This document shows positions 1 through 13,370 of a stretch of DNA of 21,048 nucleotides, piece by piece; within the stretch, counting starts at the first letter, position 1, and every line of letters begins with the position of its first letter. Origin of the DNA: a virus; the IMG/VR virus record IMGVR_UViG_3300030107_004723, positions 648-21,695 of that record; one strand, given 5' to 3'. Both the position numbers and the translations under genes were made by a program. Below the pieces are notes generated by a model. That model made no database searches and was not told the DNA's origin. It saw only the letters and a program-made list of their open reading frames with translations.

Positions 1-1669
1 CTAGTTCTTCTTTTCTATAATAAATAGTCACGGAAACAGAATTATCAGACCACTCGGTTTGTAGTTTTTTCACTAGCTCTAACTGTTCTAAAGCCTTCAT
101 GTCTTTTGAGACCACTGTGTTCTCTGGAAACTTACATGGAAACTCTACCACTACAGTATTGGTATCGTCTGAACCATCAAAGTTTCTTTGGAACTCGACC
201 TTATACCCATTTTGTTTACATACTTGTACTAAGGCACTATCGGAAGCCATACGTATTCTTCTTATATGGTAATGACTATACCCTGGATGCGCCCCTGGAG
301 TTACACCTGACAACAAACTTAGTGTGCCAGAAGGTTTGACTGTTGTTAATTTAATACTTGGTGGAAAGCCTTTTTCTTTTGAGTAATGAACATCAAACTC
401 TCTTAGTTCTTTATATGTTTCTTCTAACCAAGATTGTTGTTCTTCCGTAGCCATACAGTAACCTGTGATGCCTATACCCATTCTCATATTCTTATTTACT
501 ATTTCTTCCGTTTCTTTTGCATGACACGGTAAAGCCAACGAATGTTTATTAATTCTATATAAATAAATAGCTACCTCTATCAACTCTTCTTGTGACTCGA
601 TATTTGGTAAATGAATCTCTGCTAGACAACATGTTTCAAACGGTGCCAAGCTTTGTTCAGCGCATGGATTATATCCTGCAACGTCTGGGTCAGGATAGTT
701 TGTATCTCCTGTCCGTCCAATCTCTCTAGATAGTTTAAGATTGATGAGACCGTATGGTTCACCATTTCCATTATATCCTTCCCAAAACTGTTCGGGTAAA
801 AGTGTGATATCGTTGCATACAACACTATTGTTAGACATAGCCCTCCAGTTAGGTATGCCAAGATCCCAACGCTTCGCCTCAAGGTATTGAATATCATCAT
901 AGTCCCCTATTGCTATTTGTGCGCTCCTACGCACGTTTCCTGCTACTACAATGTAGCCTATTATGTTCATTATGTCAAGACAATCTATTGGTCTTGCTTT
1001 TTTTCCTGCTCTTGAGTTGAGTAGTTTACTAATCTCTCTAATTCCCCAACATAATTCTTCAGGTCCTGAAGCAACTCCCCCAAAACCCTTGATTGGAGTT
1101 CCCTTACCTCTGACACAGATGGTGGAATAAGTAAATCCTTCCCCTGTGATAAAATGAGATTCGAGAGTCTTTCTAAGGAGTTTGACCCAGCCCTCTCTTG
1201 AATCTGGCACAATAAAGTCTGCATCATTTGTATCTTTCCTAACAATTCTAACTTTTCTCTTAAGCTTAGGCAATTCATAAACGTATTCCCTCTGGATGTT
1301 ATATCCTACTCCTGACCCTAACATGAGAGCATCCATAGCCCATGTGAAAGGTCTTATTGGTTCATTAACTACAGTAAAGGCGCAATTCTGTAAAGACATT
1401 AAACCTAGTCGATCAATAGTCTTAGTCCCTAACTGCCACATAAATCTACCTGCTACCGACCCCTTAAGACCAAGAAGTATTTCTTTTAATCTCTTTTCTT
1501 CTTGTGGACTAAAGCCAACCTTAAGTTGTTTGTCACTAGCTTTTACTATACGGTCTACAGTGTTTTCAAACTCTTCCGTTTTTGAATTAGCATTATTTTC
1601 ATTCAGTCGTCTTGCATAAGTTCTTTTATAAGTTACATAACCCAACGGTCCCCACGGTGTTTCTACCAT
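1..1669 (-). CDS. nrdJ: Class II (adenosylcobalamin-dependent) ribonucleoside-triphosphate reductase, 3' end cut by window edge
   Basis: Reduces ribonucleotides to deoxyribonucleotides for phage DNA synthesis, using a B12-derived radical and no oxygen. Reading the minus strand from ATG at 1669 gives 556 codons without a stop up to the window edge. An early LQNCAFTVV segment carries the first cysteine, then [12 protein letters not shown] follows. The active-site motif N334-P-C336-A-E338 matches the N-x-C-x-E signature of the glycyl/thiyl radical reductases. A further Cys-Cys pair follows in [12 protein letters not shown]. The stretch [11 protein letters not shown] and the later HIRRIRM resemble the monomeric Lactobacillus-type RTPR rather than class I NrdA. 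Family proteins are about 700-740 residues, so roughly 150-180 residues lie beyond the edge. Its ATG overlaps the thyX stop by 7 bases, which suggests coupled translation. The family call is firm; B12 dependence is inferred from the motif pattern. Confidence 0.9.
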
Positions 1670-2328
1670 TCTAACGCTCCTGATATAATTGGTAACTCTT
1701 CCTTAAAAATCTTTTTTATTTCTCTAGCTATATCCCTATGTTCTTTTTGAGTTTCTACTCCTGTCCTTAATTCTAAGTAGTGAATCCAAGACCTTATGTT
1801 TCCTGTCATATAGATTTTGGTTTTTGAACTCATAGGTAATAAAAACCTAGCTTGTTCTTTTGCAATACCTTTGTCTAAAGCATCCAGGTATAAAGATGCG
1901 GTTAAAGATTGAACTCGGTTTTGAGCTACGTCAAACCAATGTCTGTCCTCAATACTCATATCATCAATTGAGTTTTGTCTATTCTTCTTATCTTGTCTCC
2001 TAGCTTCGTAGGTAACAAAATCGGGAACTGCTGCATACCTTTGAGAAAATTCTTGAAACGTAAAACTTCGATGTCTCAAAATTTGTGCGCTTATTGCCCT
2101 AGAAGTATTTATCTCTACGGTTAGATAAGCTGTCTCAAAGATAGACCAATGCTTATGTTTAATACAATACCTCAAAAGATTGGAAATGCTAGGGTTATCC
2201 TGTTGGTTAGAACTAACCCTAGCACAATAAGCTACTAGTTTTTCAGAGTCGGGTGTAATGCTTATAAGCTTTACTGGTTTTTGCACTTTCGGTACGTCAT
2301 CATTTTCTACAGAAAATCTTTTACCCAA
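1663..2328 (-). CDS. thyX: Flavin-dependent thymidylate synthase ThyX
   Basis: Methylates dUMP to dTMP with methylenetetrahydrofolate, FAD and NADPH. The 221-residue length is normal for the family. The ThyX signature RHRX7S is present as R85-H-R87 with S95 ([11 protein letters not shown]), preceded by HWSIFE (H60 to E65). The later block [18 protein letters not shown] and then [10 protein letters not shown] fits the family C-terminal half. The start is TTG at 2328, preceded by GGAG at a 6-base distance; no ATG occurs early in the frame. It sits in a nucleotide-supply run with the MazG-like protein upstream and the ribonucleotide reductase directly downstream, overlapping the latter by 7 bases. 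It could serve a host using either thyA or thyX, so it does not identify the host. Confidence 0.96.
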
Positions 2329-3088: not shown

Positions 3089-4376
3089 TTTTATCTCCAA
3101 AAAACTTTACTCTTCTTATTCTTTTTCCATTTATCTGAGGAAATGTTATTTTAAAAATACTTGAAAATCTTTCTTGTAATCTTGTTAGTTCACTTCGAGA
3201 TAAAGCTTTAAACTCTTTTTCTCTAAAAGCATCTTGTACTATAGATAAGTCTATAATCTGTCCCTTCTTCTCTACAGCATAATCCTCTAAAAACCACTCT
3301 TGAGCATCGGACAATGTAGATAACTTTATATCCTCAAGTCTTTGAGACCTGTGAACCTTAAGCATTTCTGCTTGGTCTACTTCATAATGGTATAAGTATT
3401 TAGCAAACTCTTCTATATTTTTTAAATCACAAAGTTGTTCTATTTCTTTTACTGTAAACTTAGAGTCAAGTCTATTGTTAGTTAATTCAACAACCGAAAA
3501 TCTCCTATCGTTTTCTGGAATGTAAAGAGAGTCTAAATTATTTGAAGCTATATAAATAGATGCGTGGTTATCATCTAGCTTAGCATCTTTTCCTTTACCT
3601 TCTATTTCTATTTTATCATTAACTAAATCTTTAAACTTATTCATGTGATTAGTCTTTTTGATATTGATTTCATCACAAAACACTAATCTTTTATTTCTTA
3701 TTTGAGCATTAAAATCTTTTGATATTAATTTATTATCTGTTTTAGTAAAGTTATTTAAACCTACTAACCCTAGCATAATGTTTCCTAGAACTCCTTTACC
3801 AATACCAGGTGCGCCTATAGCAGCTAAGACACAAAAGTTTCTGTTTTGAATTGCATTGGCTAACCACTTTATCATGTAATTATATTCTGATTTTTTTTCA
3901 TCAGATAGGTGAGCAAAAAATCTATGAAACAATTCTGGTATTTCATCTAACTTCTCAACTTCTTTGTATTGACCAAACTCATCTACCATCCAAGTAGGAG
4001 GTTCGTAGGTATTGAAATAACTTATAAGGTCATCACCTTCATAAATTCTATGTCTCCTAAAAGGGTCATAGATAAATTTACAGGGTCTTATGGTTAAGTC
4101 TTTTATTGCATCTTTATCTAAGAAGTGTTTGAACTGCGCTCTTTCAATCGGTTCAATAGCAGGATGAAATGGGTCATCCATGTAAACTACCGTTCCTTTT
4201 TCAATCATGTTGGTAAATAAATTAGACCTCATAATCTTTTGAGCTAAACGAAATTCAGCATCGGTTTTCTCCTCAACAATTTTATCTATAACCGTTTCTT
4301 TAGTTTCTGGAAACTTTTCTTTAAGTTTGATGCTTATCTCATCTTTGGGTAAACCCGATCTTACTAATTTTGTCAT
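3081..4376 (-). CDS. SF3-type replicative helicase (DUF5906 / D5-like phage helicase)
   Basis: An AAA+-like helicase expected to unwind the phage origin or replication fork. Numbering from ATG 4376 (431 residues), Walker A is at about 188-195 (GAPGIGKG). Walker B is at about 232-236 (VFCDE), a sensor Asn at 279-280 (IASNN) and an arginine-finger-like NDRRF at about 289-293. The upstream segment with FIYDPFRRHRIY and FNTYEPPTW is typical of the phage DUF5906 helicases that pair with primase-polymerases. Starts at TTG 4409 and ATG 4397 exist in frame. ATG 4376 is preferred because AAGGA lies 5 bases before it and the upstream stop is only 1 base away. It lies downstream of the primase and HAD genes in one operon. 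Confidence 0.9.
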   Translation of the reverse strand: MTKLVRSGLPKDEISIKLKEKFPETKETVIDKIVEEKTDAEFRLAQKIMRSNLFTNMIEKGTVVYMDDPFHPAIEPIERAQFKHFLDKDAIKDLTIRPCKFIYDPFRRHRIYEGDDLISYFNTYEPPTWMVDEFGQYKEVEKLDEIPELFHRFFAHLSDEKKSEYNYMIKWLANAIQNRNFCVLAAIGAPGIGKGVLGNIMLGLVGLNNFTKTDNKLISKDFNAQIRNKRLVFCDEINIKKTNHMNKFKDLVNDKIEIEGKGKDAKLDDNHASIYIASNNLDSLYIPENDRRFSVVELTNNRLDSKFTVKEIEQLCDLKNIEEFAKYLYHYEVDQAEMLKVHRSQRLEDIKLSTLSDAQEWFLEDYAVEKKGQIIDLSIVQDAFREKEFKALSRSELTRLQERFSSIFKITFPQINGKRIRRVKFFGDKNG

Positions 4377-4377
4377 T

Positions 4378-4776
4378 TCATTCCTTATCGCTTGCATATG
4401 CTTCCCCAAACTTAAAATGTCTGTGTGAACCTAGTGGGTTTTTTAAATCATCATAGTAACAAAAAGGTTTACTCATTATTCCTGCTACGTAATTCTCAAG
4501 CTTCAAAGCCCTGACCACCGATTGCGCCCAATGAACCCCACCCTTTGACCATACTATAACATCTATACCACGACTTCCATGCCTTTTCAACTCTTCTAGG
4601 TTTCCTTTGTTTATCACCATATGGCTTAAATGTCCATCACAATTTATACAAACCGTGTCACCTTTTAGTTTTTCGTCCCACATTACAAGGGTATCATCAA
4701 CGTCAAAGAATACGGTAGGTTTAGAAAAGACTTTAGGTTTCTTTTCTCTTATCGTTTCCATTATGCTGTTAGCCAT
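4378..4776 (-). CDS. HAD-superfamily phosphatase
   Basis: A 132-residue haloacid-dehalogenase-fold hydrolase. Motif I is FFDVDDTLV with nucleophile D25 and acid/base D27. Motif II is VWSKGG with S77, motif III is K103 in MSKPF, and the motif IV acids are D109/D110 in CYYDDLKNP. The cap region is small. Comparable phage proteins include 5'(3')-deoxyribonucleotidases and the 3'-phosphatase half of polynucleotide kinase; the sequence does not separate these. The stretch VCINCDGHLSH has two Cys and two His that could form a small metal site (inference). The ATG overlaps the primase stop (TAATG), and its TGA is one base from the helicase ATG, so it is embedded in the replication operon. Confidence 0.85.
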   Translation of the reverse strand: MANSIMETIREKKPKVFSKPTVFFDVDDTLVMWDEKLKGDTVCINCDGHLSHMVINKGNLEELKRHGSRGIDVIVWSKGGVHWAQSVVRALKLENYVAGIMSKPFCYYDDLKNPLGSHRHFKFGEAYASDKE

Positions 4777-7182: not shown

Positions 7183-7308
7183 TTAGCCCTCCAGAAATTC
7201 TATTGCTTCCTTTAATCTCTTAATCTCATTATGCCAATCATCGTCATAAATTTCAAGAGTTTTTATAACATCGGTAATTTTTTCAATTGCTTCCTCTCTC
7301 TTTAACAT
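7183..7308 (-). CDS. Small helical protein (41 residues)
   Basis: ATG at 7308 to TAA at 7183-7185. An AAGGGG leader stands 6 bases before the ATG, the same leader as in five other genes of this strand. The product is one charged helix pair (MLKREEAIEKITDVIKTLEI, a YDDDWH turn, then NEIKRLKEAIEFLEG). Its stop abuts the GTG of the next gene, and its start overlaps the lipoprotein gene by 26 bases. Function unknown. The ribosome site and end-to-end fit support it being real. Confidence 0.6.
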   Translation of the reverse strand: MLKREEAIEKITDVIKTLEIYDDDWHNEIKRLKEAIEFLEG

Positions 7309-7588
7309 CTTTATCCCCTTCAATAAAATCTATGTAACCTCTCCAATGCTCTTTACAATATGCCTTTATATCCTTAGCCTTCCAAGCGTGTTCTTTCTGC
7401 TTCATTAAAGTACAGGCTGCTATCGCCTTCTCTTTTGTCTCGTCACTAAAAGCCGGAGACCTTCCAACCGTCTGATTAAAGTCCACCTTGCTATTAAGTT
7501 TACAACTAGAAAGGAATGTCATCAGCAGTAAAATCAGCATCGGGGTTAACATAATTTTCAAACCTATCATCGTCTGTAATATTTTCAT
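7283..7588 (-). CDS. Probable phage lipoprotein
   Basis: A 101-residue product with a type II signal peptide. The N-region ends at K11, a hydrophobic run IMLTPMLILLLMTFL follows, and the lipobox is L-S-S-C29. Processing would leave a 73-residue lipoprotein attached at C29, with two further Cys in the mature part (AACTLMKQ and AYCKEHW). The first ATG (7588) has GGAGG about 9 bases upstream; internal ATGs at residues 7 and 13 also keep the lipobox. The gene starts 83 bases inside the preceding gene in another frame. Small early phage lipoproteins can block superinfection (for example the T5 Llp type). That role here is inference from type and position only. Confidence 0.7.
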   Translation of the reverse strand: MKILQTMIGLKIMLTPMLILLLMTFLSSCKLNSKVDFNQTVGRSPAFSDETKEKAIAACTLMKQKEHAWKAKDIKAYCKEHWRGYIDFIEGDKDVKERGSN

Positions 7589-7691
7589 CCTCTAGTTCCT
7601 CCTGTCTTTTCATTTCTTCTTCTATCCATCTTTCATGTCTAAGGGTTAATAAGTCCCCATAGTCCTCTAATAGTCTTAATACTTTACTCAT
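7506..7691 (-). CDS. Hypothetical small acidic protein
   Basis: A 61-residue protein, not recognised. The N-terminal half is an amphipathic charged helix (MSKVLRLLEDYGDLLTLRHE). The C-terminal half is strongly acidic and probably disordered (DENITDDDRFENYVNPDADF). The acidic tail is coded by the same bases, in a shifted frame, that code the lipoprotein's signal peptide. The ATG at 7691 follows AAGGGG by about 8 bases and overlaps the preceding gene's stop (ATGA). Its composition resembles DNA-mimic or inhibitor peptides, but that is only an impression. Confidence 0.6.
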   Translation of the reverse strand: MSKVLRLLEDYGDLLTLRHERWIEEEMKRQEELEDENITDDDRFENYVNPDADFTADDIPF

Positions 7692-8020
7692 TTCTTATTC
7701 CCCTTTGGTTTGACCGTAGTAATTGAAACAATCGCCTTAGGTGTTGCCAGTACAGCATCTTTTTGAGGCGTGTTATCTCTGTATAATAGCACGATCATTC
7801 CATGTTGTCTACATAATAATTGGAAGTTCTTAAAATGGATTGTAGTTGTACAAGTTAAATGGTCCGAAGCCGTTCCGACCGTGTTTATTGTACTGGCATT
7901 AATATTCGTAGGCATAAACCAGGATTTAGTCGCCTTCGGGGTCTTGATCGATACCATCACGGTCGATGCCATTGAGGTCATGCTCATTGTTAATGCTGCT
8001 ATTGCTAATAATTTTTTCAT
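7688..8020 (-). CDS. Secreted small protein with Sec signal peptide
   Basis: A 110-residue protein with a textbook Sec signal peptide. MKKLL is followed by a hydrophobic core (AIAALTMSMTSM) and a likely cleavage after M-A-S at about residue 19. The mature part (about 91 residues) is Thr- and Val-rich and beta-like. It has two Cys (C57 in LTCTT and C70 in LLCRQH) that could form a disulfide in the periplasm or outside the cell. The tail is basic (VKPKGNKK). GGAG stands about 8 bases before the ATG at 8020. No family recognised. The neighbouring lipoprotein suggests a small group of envelope-directed early genes. Confidence 0.75.
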   Translation of the reverse strand: MKKLLAIAALTMSMTSMASTVMVSIKTPKATKSWFMPTNINASTINTVGTASDHLTCTTTIHFKNFQLLCRQHGMIVLLYRDNTPQKDAVLATPKAIVSITTVKPKGNKK

Positions 8021-11457: not shown

Positions 11458-11899
11458 ACTAAGACCTCTAGTAGATGAGGACCACGCATTTCTGTTTAAC
11501 AGTTTTCTGAAGTCCTATAGGTTCAGTCCGTTTGCAGAAAAAATTACAAACACTATTTATTTTGAGGACCATCATAAACTTATAGAACGAATTATAGACA
11601 ATTCAAAAGTTCTTGTAGCTTGTAACCCCTCTGACCCTTCTCAACTTTATGGCTACATACTAGCAGGGGAGGAAGAAGGAGTCCTTGTAATCCACTTTCT
11701 ATATGTTAAGCATACCTTCAGAAATATGGGGATTGGGAAAACTCTTTTAGACGCAGTAGGTCATTCGAGTGATAACGCAGCAGTTTACACTCACCATACC
11801 CGAATGGCAGATCGGTTAGCCTCTAAATATAATTTAGTTTACCATCCGTATTTATTATTTGACCTTCCTAACCTAGAGGTTCCATGTGAGCAGGACTAA
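11444..11899 (+). CDS. GNAT-family N-acetyltransferase-like protein
   Basis: A 151-residue protein with the GNAT layout. Beta strands include GVLVIHFLYVKHTF. The acetyl-CoA pyrophosphate loop is R93-N-M-G-I-G98-K (the R/Q-x-x-G-x-G/A motif A), followed by helix TLLDAV. The C-terminal strand region is YNLVYHPYLLFDL. The ATG at 11444 has AAGGAAG upstream. A GNAT protein beside the packaging genes is common in phages. Its target is unknown and could be a virion protein, host protein or small molecule. The C-terminal Tyr usually acting as general acid cannot be assigned safely. Confidence 0.75.
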   Translation: MENCRLRPLVDEDHAFLFNSFLKSYRFSPFAEKITNTIYFEDHHKLIERIIDNSKVLVACNPSDPSQLYGYILAGEEEGVLVIHFLYVKHTFRNMGIGKTLLDAVGHSSDNAAVYTHHTRMADRLASKYNLVYHPYLLFDLPNLEVPCEQD

Positions 11900-12449
11900 A
11901 GATGTAGATAAAGAAAAGTTAAGACTCGACTACCTCTTTGAGCAGGGGGTTAATTTTGTCGATCGAGTTATTCAGATTAACGAAGAAATAGATGACCATA
12001 GTTTTTCTTTCATAGATGCTGCCCTTAGTGAATTAGAAAGAGCTAGTAAAAAAACTATAACTATAAGAATAAACTCTCCAGGTGGTTCAGTCTACGATGC
12101 TCTAGCTATGATAGGGCGGTTAAACTCTTCAAGCTGTAGAATAGTCACAGAATCTTACGGTCACGTTATGAGTGCTGCGACCTTATTACTAGCAGCAGGT
12201 CGTAAACGTAGAATGTCTAAATACTGTGTGTTTATGGCACACCAAATGTCTTACTACATAGGAGGGTCTCATGCTGAAACGAAAGAAGAAGTAGATCAAG
12301 TTGAAAAACAGGAACGCCAATGGTGTTCTTGGATGGCAGAGTTGAGTAACAAGGATGCAGAATTTTGGTACGATAGGACCTACAAGAAAAACTTTTACTT
12401 GACTCCAGATGAATGCTTAGAGTATGGAGTTATAGATGAAATCTTTTAA
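11886..12449 (+). CDS. ClpP-type serine protease, probable head maturation protease
   Basis: A 187-residue member of the ClpP/crotonase-fold proteases. The oxyanion loop is INSPGGSVYDAL (PGG at 65-67). The nucleophile is S96 in YGHVMSAATLLLAAG, and the base is H119 in VFMAHQMS. The C-terminal YLTPDECLEYGVIDEIF matches the ClpP end. Aligning that end by eye, the position of the third triad residue (Asp in ClpP) appears to be Lys168 or Asn169, so a dyad is possible. The start is GTG at 11886, with AGAGG 6 bases upstream, overlapping the GNAT gene by 14 bases. It likely trims scaffold and capsid proteins during head assembly, judged from the portal, scaffold and capsid genes downstream. Confidence 0.85.
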   Translation: MSRTKDVDKEKLRLDYLFEQGVNFVDRVIQINEEIDDHSFSFIDAALSELERASKKTITIRINSPGGSVYDALAMIGRLNSSSCRIVTESYGHVMSAATLLLAAGRKRRMSKYCVFMAHQMSYYIGGSHAETKEEVDQVEKQERQWCSWMAELSNKDAEFWYDRTYKKNFYLTPDECLEYGVIDEIF

Positions 12450-12726
12450 AAACCGTAGTCATGAAGTAGCTTGCAATATGATGGAAATTAGTATAGAATT
12501 AATAGATGAAGTGTTCAAAAAAGTAGACCGTATAGCCAAACGTAATTCTCACAGAGAACGCAATGGTTTAAAGCTGATAGACTCAGGACATTTTAGATGG
12601 GACATAAGACAATTAAAATTACAAACAAAGGACAAGCTGGAGTCAATTCAGGCTCTATTAGAACAATACGGCGACGACACCAAGTTGATCGCAAGAAAAC
12701 CTGAATCGGAGGAGACCGAAGAATGA
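12436..12726 (+). CDS. Hypothetical helical protein
   Basis: A 96-residue protein, not recognised. It is mainly helical with mixed charge (EISIELIDEVFKKVDRIAKR, then a DIRQLKLQTKDKLESIQALL segment) and an acidic end (ESEETEE). GGAG stands 6 bases before the ATG at 12436, inside the end of the first ClpP-like gene, and its stop overlaps the ATG of the second. Being sandwiched between two ClpP-like proteases, it may be an adaptor or partner of one of them; that is inference from place only. Confidence 0.65.
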   Translation: MKSFKNRSHEVACNMMEISIELIDEVFKKVDRIAKRNSHRERNGLKLIDSGHFRWDIRQLKLQTKDKLESIQALLEQYGDDTKLIARKPESEETEE

Positions 12727-13370
12727 AAAAACTATTGACCTTAGCTATTTTGGGGGGGCTATTTTTAGGCACCTTCTTATCAATCGAAAGAAAAGAAGTC
12801 TTAGAGAATAAGTATGATGTTTCTATTGGAGCCATTAATGGTTACAGTATAGACCCTACTCTAAAAGATTTTAAAACCGCAGCAAAAGTAAATGGAAAAG
12901 ACAAAGTAGTTGATATGGTTATTAACTCAGGTGGAGGTTCAGTTCACATCGGGTTAGAGATAATCGAAGAAATGAAATACATGAAAAGCTTAGGTTATAA
13001 GTTTAATTGTTTTGTTCGTAATGCCTATTCTATGGGGTTTATAATTTTGCAATATTGTGACCATAGGATAGGGAGTTCTAATTCAACCTATATGCACCAC
13101 CTGGTACAGGTAGGTTACGGCAGACCTAAAAGAACTGAAAATAATAAGAAATTATTTAAAGCACTTGACTTTTTTGATAATCTAGTGTTAAACGAAATAT
13201 CAAAAAGAATGGGTGTAGACCCCAAAGAGTTTTTTGAGATTTATAAAGATGACAAATGGTGGGATGCCAAAGAAGCTTTAAAGTCTAACATCATAGATGA
13301 GATAAAACCATTTAGTTTAGTTGTAAAAAAAGTAAAATATAAATTTGTACCATTTTGGAGGAGATACTAA
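12723..13370 (+). CDS. Membrane-targeted ClpP/SppA-like serine protease
   Basis: A 215-residue second protease of the ClpP fold. The N-terminus is a signal or anchor segment: MKKLL, then hydrophobic TLAILGGLFLGTFL to about residue 20. The core shows INSGGGSVHIGLEI (GGG at 70-72), nucleophile S103 in NAYSMGF and H125/H126 in YMHHLVQ. A possible third residue is D177 in KDDKWWDAKEAL, followed by NIIDEI. No AxA site follows the hydrophobic core, so it may stay anchored, facing the periplasm or exterior. It ends in a basic patch (KVKYKFVPFWRRY). GGAG is about 9 bases before the ATG. SppA-like signal-peptide peptidase is the nearest known idea. Confidence 0.8.
   Translation: MKKLLTLAILGGLFLGTFLSIERKEVLENKYDVSIGAINGYSIDPTLKDFKTAAKVNGKDKVVDMVINSGGGSVHIGLEIIEEMKYMKSLGYKFNCFVRNAYSMGFIILQYCDHRIGSSNSTYMHHLVQVGYGRPKRTENNKKLFKALDFFDNLVLNEISKRMGVDPKEFFEIYKDDKWWDAKEALKSNIIDEIKPFSLVVKKVKYKFVPFWRRY

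Follow-up and report, generated by a model that had tools for sequence, protein, structure and literature searches.

A tandem pair of ClpP-type proteases in an uncultivated phage lineage, the second predicted to be membrane-anchored

Why would a phage encode two ClpP-type proteases in tandem, the second of which starts with a hydrophobic helix? This question is raised by a locus in a 21.7-kb uncultivated virus record (IMG/VR record IMGVR_UViG_3300030107_004723), of which a stretch of 21,048 nucleotides, hereafter the window, was analyzed. A preliminary description of this DNA had predicted two tandem ClpP-fold proteases, the second of them carrying a signal or anchor helix. Both ORFs were recovered in place, and both proteins score above the Pfam CLP_protease cut-off. 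The two proteases are named P1 and P3 here, and the protein encoded between them is named P2. The features of the locus are as follows.

11886–12449, + strand: P1, a 187-aa ClpP-fold protease with no signal or anchor (PF00574 E 3.6e-25; phrog_94 E 1.6e-29)
12171–12173, + strand: P1 S96, aligned with the ClpP Ser
12240–12242, + strand: P1 H119, aligned with the ClpP His
12436–12726, + strand: P2, a 96-aa protein whose gene overlaps P1 at its 5' end and P3 at its 3' end
12708–12714, + strand: P3 ribosome-binding site GGAGGAG, read from the sequence
12723–13370, + strand: P3, a 215-aa ClpP-fold protease predicted to be membrane-anchored (PF00574 E 2.8e-12)
12726–12779, + strand: P3 N-terminal hydrophobic helix, residues 2–19, a predicted signal anchor or signal peptide (hydropathy, charge and model)
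13029–13031, + strand: P3 S103, putative nucleophile (NAYSMGF), invariant in alignments
13098–13100, + strand: P3 H126, putative catalytic His (YMHHL), invariant in alignments and in the ClpP His column
13251–13253, + strand: P3 D177, acidic residue invariant in alignments, possible third catalytic residue

Gene order and relatives of the protease locus

Relatives were gathered by searching IMG/VR contigs with three queries, P3, P1 and TerL. The same gene order was found in dozens of contigs, in which three small genes and a GNAT gene are followed by P1, P2, P3, a small gene, a 2OG-Fe(II) oxygenase gene, TerL, another small gene, and genes encoding the portal, a scaffold candidate and the major capsid protein (MCP). 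P1 and P3 were found together in 37 related contigs, some of them near-identical, and also in the sister phage L112 (52.7-kb contig, TerL 67% identical). Identity to the window copy is 73–98% among the P1 matches, and that of P3 goes down to 43–46% in the relatives. L112 keeps P1 together with a strongly diverged P3 (24% identity), which aligns to the window P3 from residue 1 with an E value of 2e-9, compared with only 0.002 to P1. Near the protease operon, L112 also encodes an SLT transglycosylase whose N-terminus includes a hydrophobic stretch and which is likely an exported lysin (1492–1992, minus strand).

In L111 (TerL 69% identical, 11.8-kb contig), neither protease was found in the 5.6 kb upstream of TerL, indicating that the P1-P3 pair is not universal at the TerL-upstream locus in the wider lineage; the pair may be dispensable. 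The GNAT gene of L111 is followed by a gene for a 139-aa protein (4137–4556) with a HELAH (HExxH) motif, which looks SprT-like by eye and has no Pfam match. The closest cultured relatives share only 25–28% amino acid identity in TerL and 25% in MCP. A scan of genome contigs for bacterial or prophage homologues of P3 returned ordinary host ClpP only.

P2 had been suggested to be an adaptor between the two proteases, a suggestion that did not survive comparison. No convincing family match for P2 was found in Pfam, PHROG or NCBIfam profile searches, and P2 is exchanged for other genes while P1 and P3 persist. For example, P2 is replaced by a FabF-like beta-ketoacyl synthase (Pfam E 6.8e-40) in L043, and by a small ORF and a PQ-loop membrane protein in L112. 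An obligate adaptor was thus rejected. In L042, L044 and L045, the P1-P3 gap is equal in size to the FabF-bearing gap of L043, the only one of these that was scanned. The L043 gene (4641–5915) encodes a full-length beta-ketoacyl-ACP synthase with both Pfam domains, which puts a fatty-acid synthesis gene of the phage next to that of the putative anchored protease. The PQ-loop protein between P1 and P3 in L112 (5441–5716) is SemiSWEET-like.

Fold, active site and similarity to head proteases

P1 matches the Pfam CLP_protease profile with 89.3 bits (cut-off 20.2). Its gene starts with GTG, at the position of an ATG in the relatives, and the most hydrophobic stretch within residues 1–40 reaches a KD17 of 0.22. 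P3, whose family is distantly homologous to that of P1, scores 47.3 bits against the same Pfam profile, and stays below the cut-off for Peptidase_S49 (13.5 bits, cut-off 24.9) and SppA_dom (18.7 bits, cut-off 155). Fold prediction agrees with the profile search. In the AlphaFold2 model built from a 32-sequence alignment (pLDDT 89.6), a single helix at residues 2–19 leads directly into a ClpP domain, whose best PDB match by Foldseek is Neisseria meningitidis ClpP (E 7.5e-14), with further matches to viral ClpPs, mostly from phages. This alignment held P1-type and host ClpP rows, which bias the model towards ClpP; an earlier and weaker model (pLDDT 73), built without them from 14 close sequences, had SppA as its best match.

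The preliminary description had named S96 and H119 in P1, and S103, H125 or H126, and D177 in P3, as marks of the fold. The numbering is exact, and two of the P3 assignments need correction. In an alignment with the host ClpP L063, S103 and H126 fall into the catalytic Ser and His columns, making H126 and not H125 the putative catalytic His; S103 and H126 do not vary among 19 P3 sequences. P3 has I173 in the column of the canonical ClpP Asp, and the invariant D177 lies four residues later, off this column. An acid-x-aromatic motif like that around D177 is also present near the C-terminus of other phage ClpPs, suggesting that D177 may serve as the catalytic acid. Since the canonical Asp is missing, P3 activity is not assured. 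The P3 core is under strong purifying selection (dN/dS 0.05–0.12). The Ser-His pair appears to be of the ClpP type, and the invariant His argues against an SppA Ser-Lys dyad. The most fitting description of P3 is an S14 (ClpP) domain anchored in the manner of SppA.

P1 had been taken for a head maturation protease. ClpP-like phage head maturation proteases (phrog_94, NF045542) are the best phage-profile match of both P1 and P3, phrog_94 being the best PHROG of each, and the two genes lie just upstream of those for TerL, portal, scaffold candidate and MCP. Both products could then be assembly proteases, P1 trimming the scaffold or capsid, and P3 acting as a membrane-docked second prohead protease or being packaged and ejected, with its hydrophobic N-terminus used for assembly at the membrane or for penetrating it. 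We regard this as unlikely. The scores against the NCBIfam head-protease model NF045542 are 82 bits for P1 and 45 bits for P3, both below the curated cut-off of 120. The P1 gene is located upstream of TerL and not between the portal and MCP genes, unlike the portal-ClpP-capsid order of other phages; between portal and MCP there is a separate scaffold candidate. In profile searches, the portal protein hits P22/SU10 types and the MCP hits SU10_MCP, and capsid maturation in P22 runs without a protease. In addition, the signal-peptide-like N-terminus of the L112 P3 suits export better than assembly. The assignment of P1 was therefore not upheld: its likeness to head maturation proteases is one of profile, and with a score below the cut-off, a position upstream of TerL and a P22/SU10-like capsid set, it is at most a candidate head protease.

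The hydrophobic N-terminus of P3

The window P3 starts with M-K-K, has three positive charges in front of its helix, and reaches a KD17 of 2.11 over residues 2–19. A hydrophobic stretch near the start (KD17 1.89–2.68) and a positive front (+2 to +4) were found in all 33 distinct complete P3 N-termini, including that of L112, which bears out the signal or anchor helix of the preliminary description. No second stretch is equally hydrophobic in the two P3 proteins checked. A relative with a helix-less P3 was looked for. Where a tblastn match began only at residue 4, 17 or 20, the locus was read again, and the helix was present at every one whose contig includes the N-terminus. In nine ClpPs of other phages (named phages and contigs), KD17 does not exceed 0.99, and there is no hydrophobic N-terminus. 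Because the helix is kept throughout despite identities of about 43%, and the nine other phage ClpPs are without it, its conservation, as judged from these sequences, is not chance.

The sequence of the helix varies freely between relatives (MKKLLTLAILGGLFLGTFLS vs MQGKLKFLLNIFIVCLMWYIPFK). In clade B, the dN/dS of the anchor is about 0.78 (from few sites), compared with 0.12 for the core, as expected if only hydrophobicity matters. The assignment as an export signal or anchor is based on hydropathy, charge and the -3/-1 rule. In the window lineage, the residues after the helix offer no good signal peptidase I site (F at -3), which makes an uncleaved anchor the better reading there. No lipobox was seen in P3. 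The N-terminus of the L112 P3, MSKLLLGLLLAATAITAATSA-QK, has a classic signal-peptide layout.

Charge bias, the one indicator of topology used here, suggests an N-in orientation with the protease domain outside the cytoplasm. The domain would instead be cytoplasmic if P3 were a regulatory or inactive subunit holding P1 against the cytoplasmic side of the membrane in a mixed ring, as in ClpP1/ClpP2. The constant co-occurrence of P1 and P3, the distant homology of their families and the absence of the canonical Asp from P3 would all suit such a ring. However, an N flank of +2 to +4 is predicted, by positive-inside bias, to place the domain outside, S103 and H126 are invariant in P3, and the start of the L112 P3 is signal-peptide-like. 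A mixed ring is in our view very unlikely.

Proposed role and comparison with known systems

P3 has a ClpP fold, a Ser-His pair, a conserved hydrophobic N-terminus and constant co-occurrence with P1, all of them results of computation. With somewhat better than even confidence, we favor a reading in which P3 is an S14 (ClpP-type) serine peptidase targeted by the phage to the cytoplasmic membrane of its host, its peptidase domain lying on the outer, periplasm-facing side, with P1 as a cytoplasmic partner encoded in the same operon and peptide clearance in the envelope as the likeliest job. The N-terminal signal anchor would hold P3 in the membrane, and is probably cleaved off in L112. N-termini in a ClpP ring sit at the pore face, so that seven anchors would set the pore of a P3 ring against the membrane. 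Late in infection, P3 might destroy peptides or membrane-associated fragments of proteins in the host envelope, independently of ATP and in an SppA-like manner. This is the weakest step of the proposal. Such destruction would make it easier for the phage to export the proteins it secretes, to take over the envelope or to lyse the host. We infer that P3 is active, forms oligomers and is expressed late; a putative envelope role, whether in peptide clearance, processing or help in lysis, is plausible. More tentatively, and with well under even confidence, P1 and P3 may make up a two-compartment proteolysis module of the phage, with P1 in the cytoplasm and P3 exported and anchored, the latter taking apart envelope proteins or peptides in aid of export or lysis. 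Within the scope of this search, no other phage lineage is known to send an S14-type protease into the host envelope.

Among the proteins scanned in L066–L068 (G001 and G003 contigs), no recognized lysin was found near P3. These scans covered only part of the small ORFs, so a lysis role is not arguable from a missing endolysin. An 85-aa one-helix protein in L066 (8002–8259) is weakly XhlA/holin-like (phrog_689 E 0.007) and represents a holin candidate. The phage seems to export several proteins, as judged from their predicted N-termini. Two genes on the minus strand of the window encode a putative lipoprotein with an LSSC lipobox-like motif (7283–7588) and a putative signal-peptide protein (7688–8020), both with counterparts in G001. 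The structural gene regions of L068 (9178–12120) and L069 (7104–9932, minus strand) each encode a large protein (940–980 aa) with a signal-peptide-like start (VLRAILIFVLLGSTAMA and MRKILKTLIGGLSLLLISNIGSVAMA, respectively). These starts are odd for virion proteins, and the two proteins are possible substrates or partners of P3.

P3 could also act as an envelope shield, destroying antimicrobial peptides that reach the cell or proteins injected by competing phages (superinfection exclusion). Bacillus subtilis SppA, which forms octamers, confers resistance to lantibiotic peptides (PMC7568657), and a peptidase anchored on the outer side would be in a good position for a similar task. The neighbors of P3, however, are packaging and assembly genes and not early or immunity genes, and a shield appears quite unlikely.

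If the favored role of P3 in envelope peptide clearance is true, an anchored S14 domain kept by a phage family under strong selection would show how a Clp protease may function by itself in a membrane setting, and the protease would represent a new phage tool for the host envelope. Labels of head maturation protease given to phage proteins by fold only may mask other functions. In the openly accessible literature, no paper was found that joins phage, ClpP-like protease, transmembrane and signal peptide peptidase.

ClpP rings are cytoplasmic (or organellar) enzymes paired with ATP-driven unfoldases. P3 shares with ClpP (S14, e.g., that of N. meningitidis) the fold, a PF00574 match above the cut-off, and the Ser and His columns. 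It differs in having an N-terminal membrane anchor where ClpP has the axial-loop region, in having I173 in the canonical Asp column, and in its predicted location outside the cytoplasm, because of which an AAA+ unfoldase partner is not expected. Among phage proteins, the sampled head maturation proteases are encoded between portal and capsid genes and are without a hydrophobic N-terminus, unlike P3. Extra ClpPs that are encoded away from the capsid genes and are weakly P3-like occur in Mycobacterium phage Dumbo (gp101) and in jumbo phages such as Escherichia phage A4, but these have no N-terminal hydrophobic helix. The jumbo-phage ClpPs show a patchy spread and are believed to act against the host (PMC7824862).

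Escherichia coli SppA is held in the membrane by one N-terminal TM segment, its catalytic domain is periplasmic, and it uses a Ser-Lys dyad (PMC9360617). P3 shares with SppA (S49) the Clp-like fold, one N-terminal membrane segment and a domain predicted to be outside, whereas it has Ser-His instead of Ser-Lys, and the S49 and SppA profiles score below their cut-offs. The term SppA-like, used in the preliminary description, thus fits P3 in its predicted anchoring but not in its catalytic residues.
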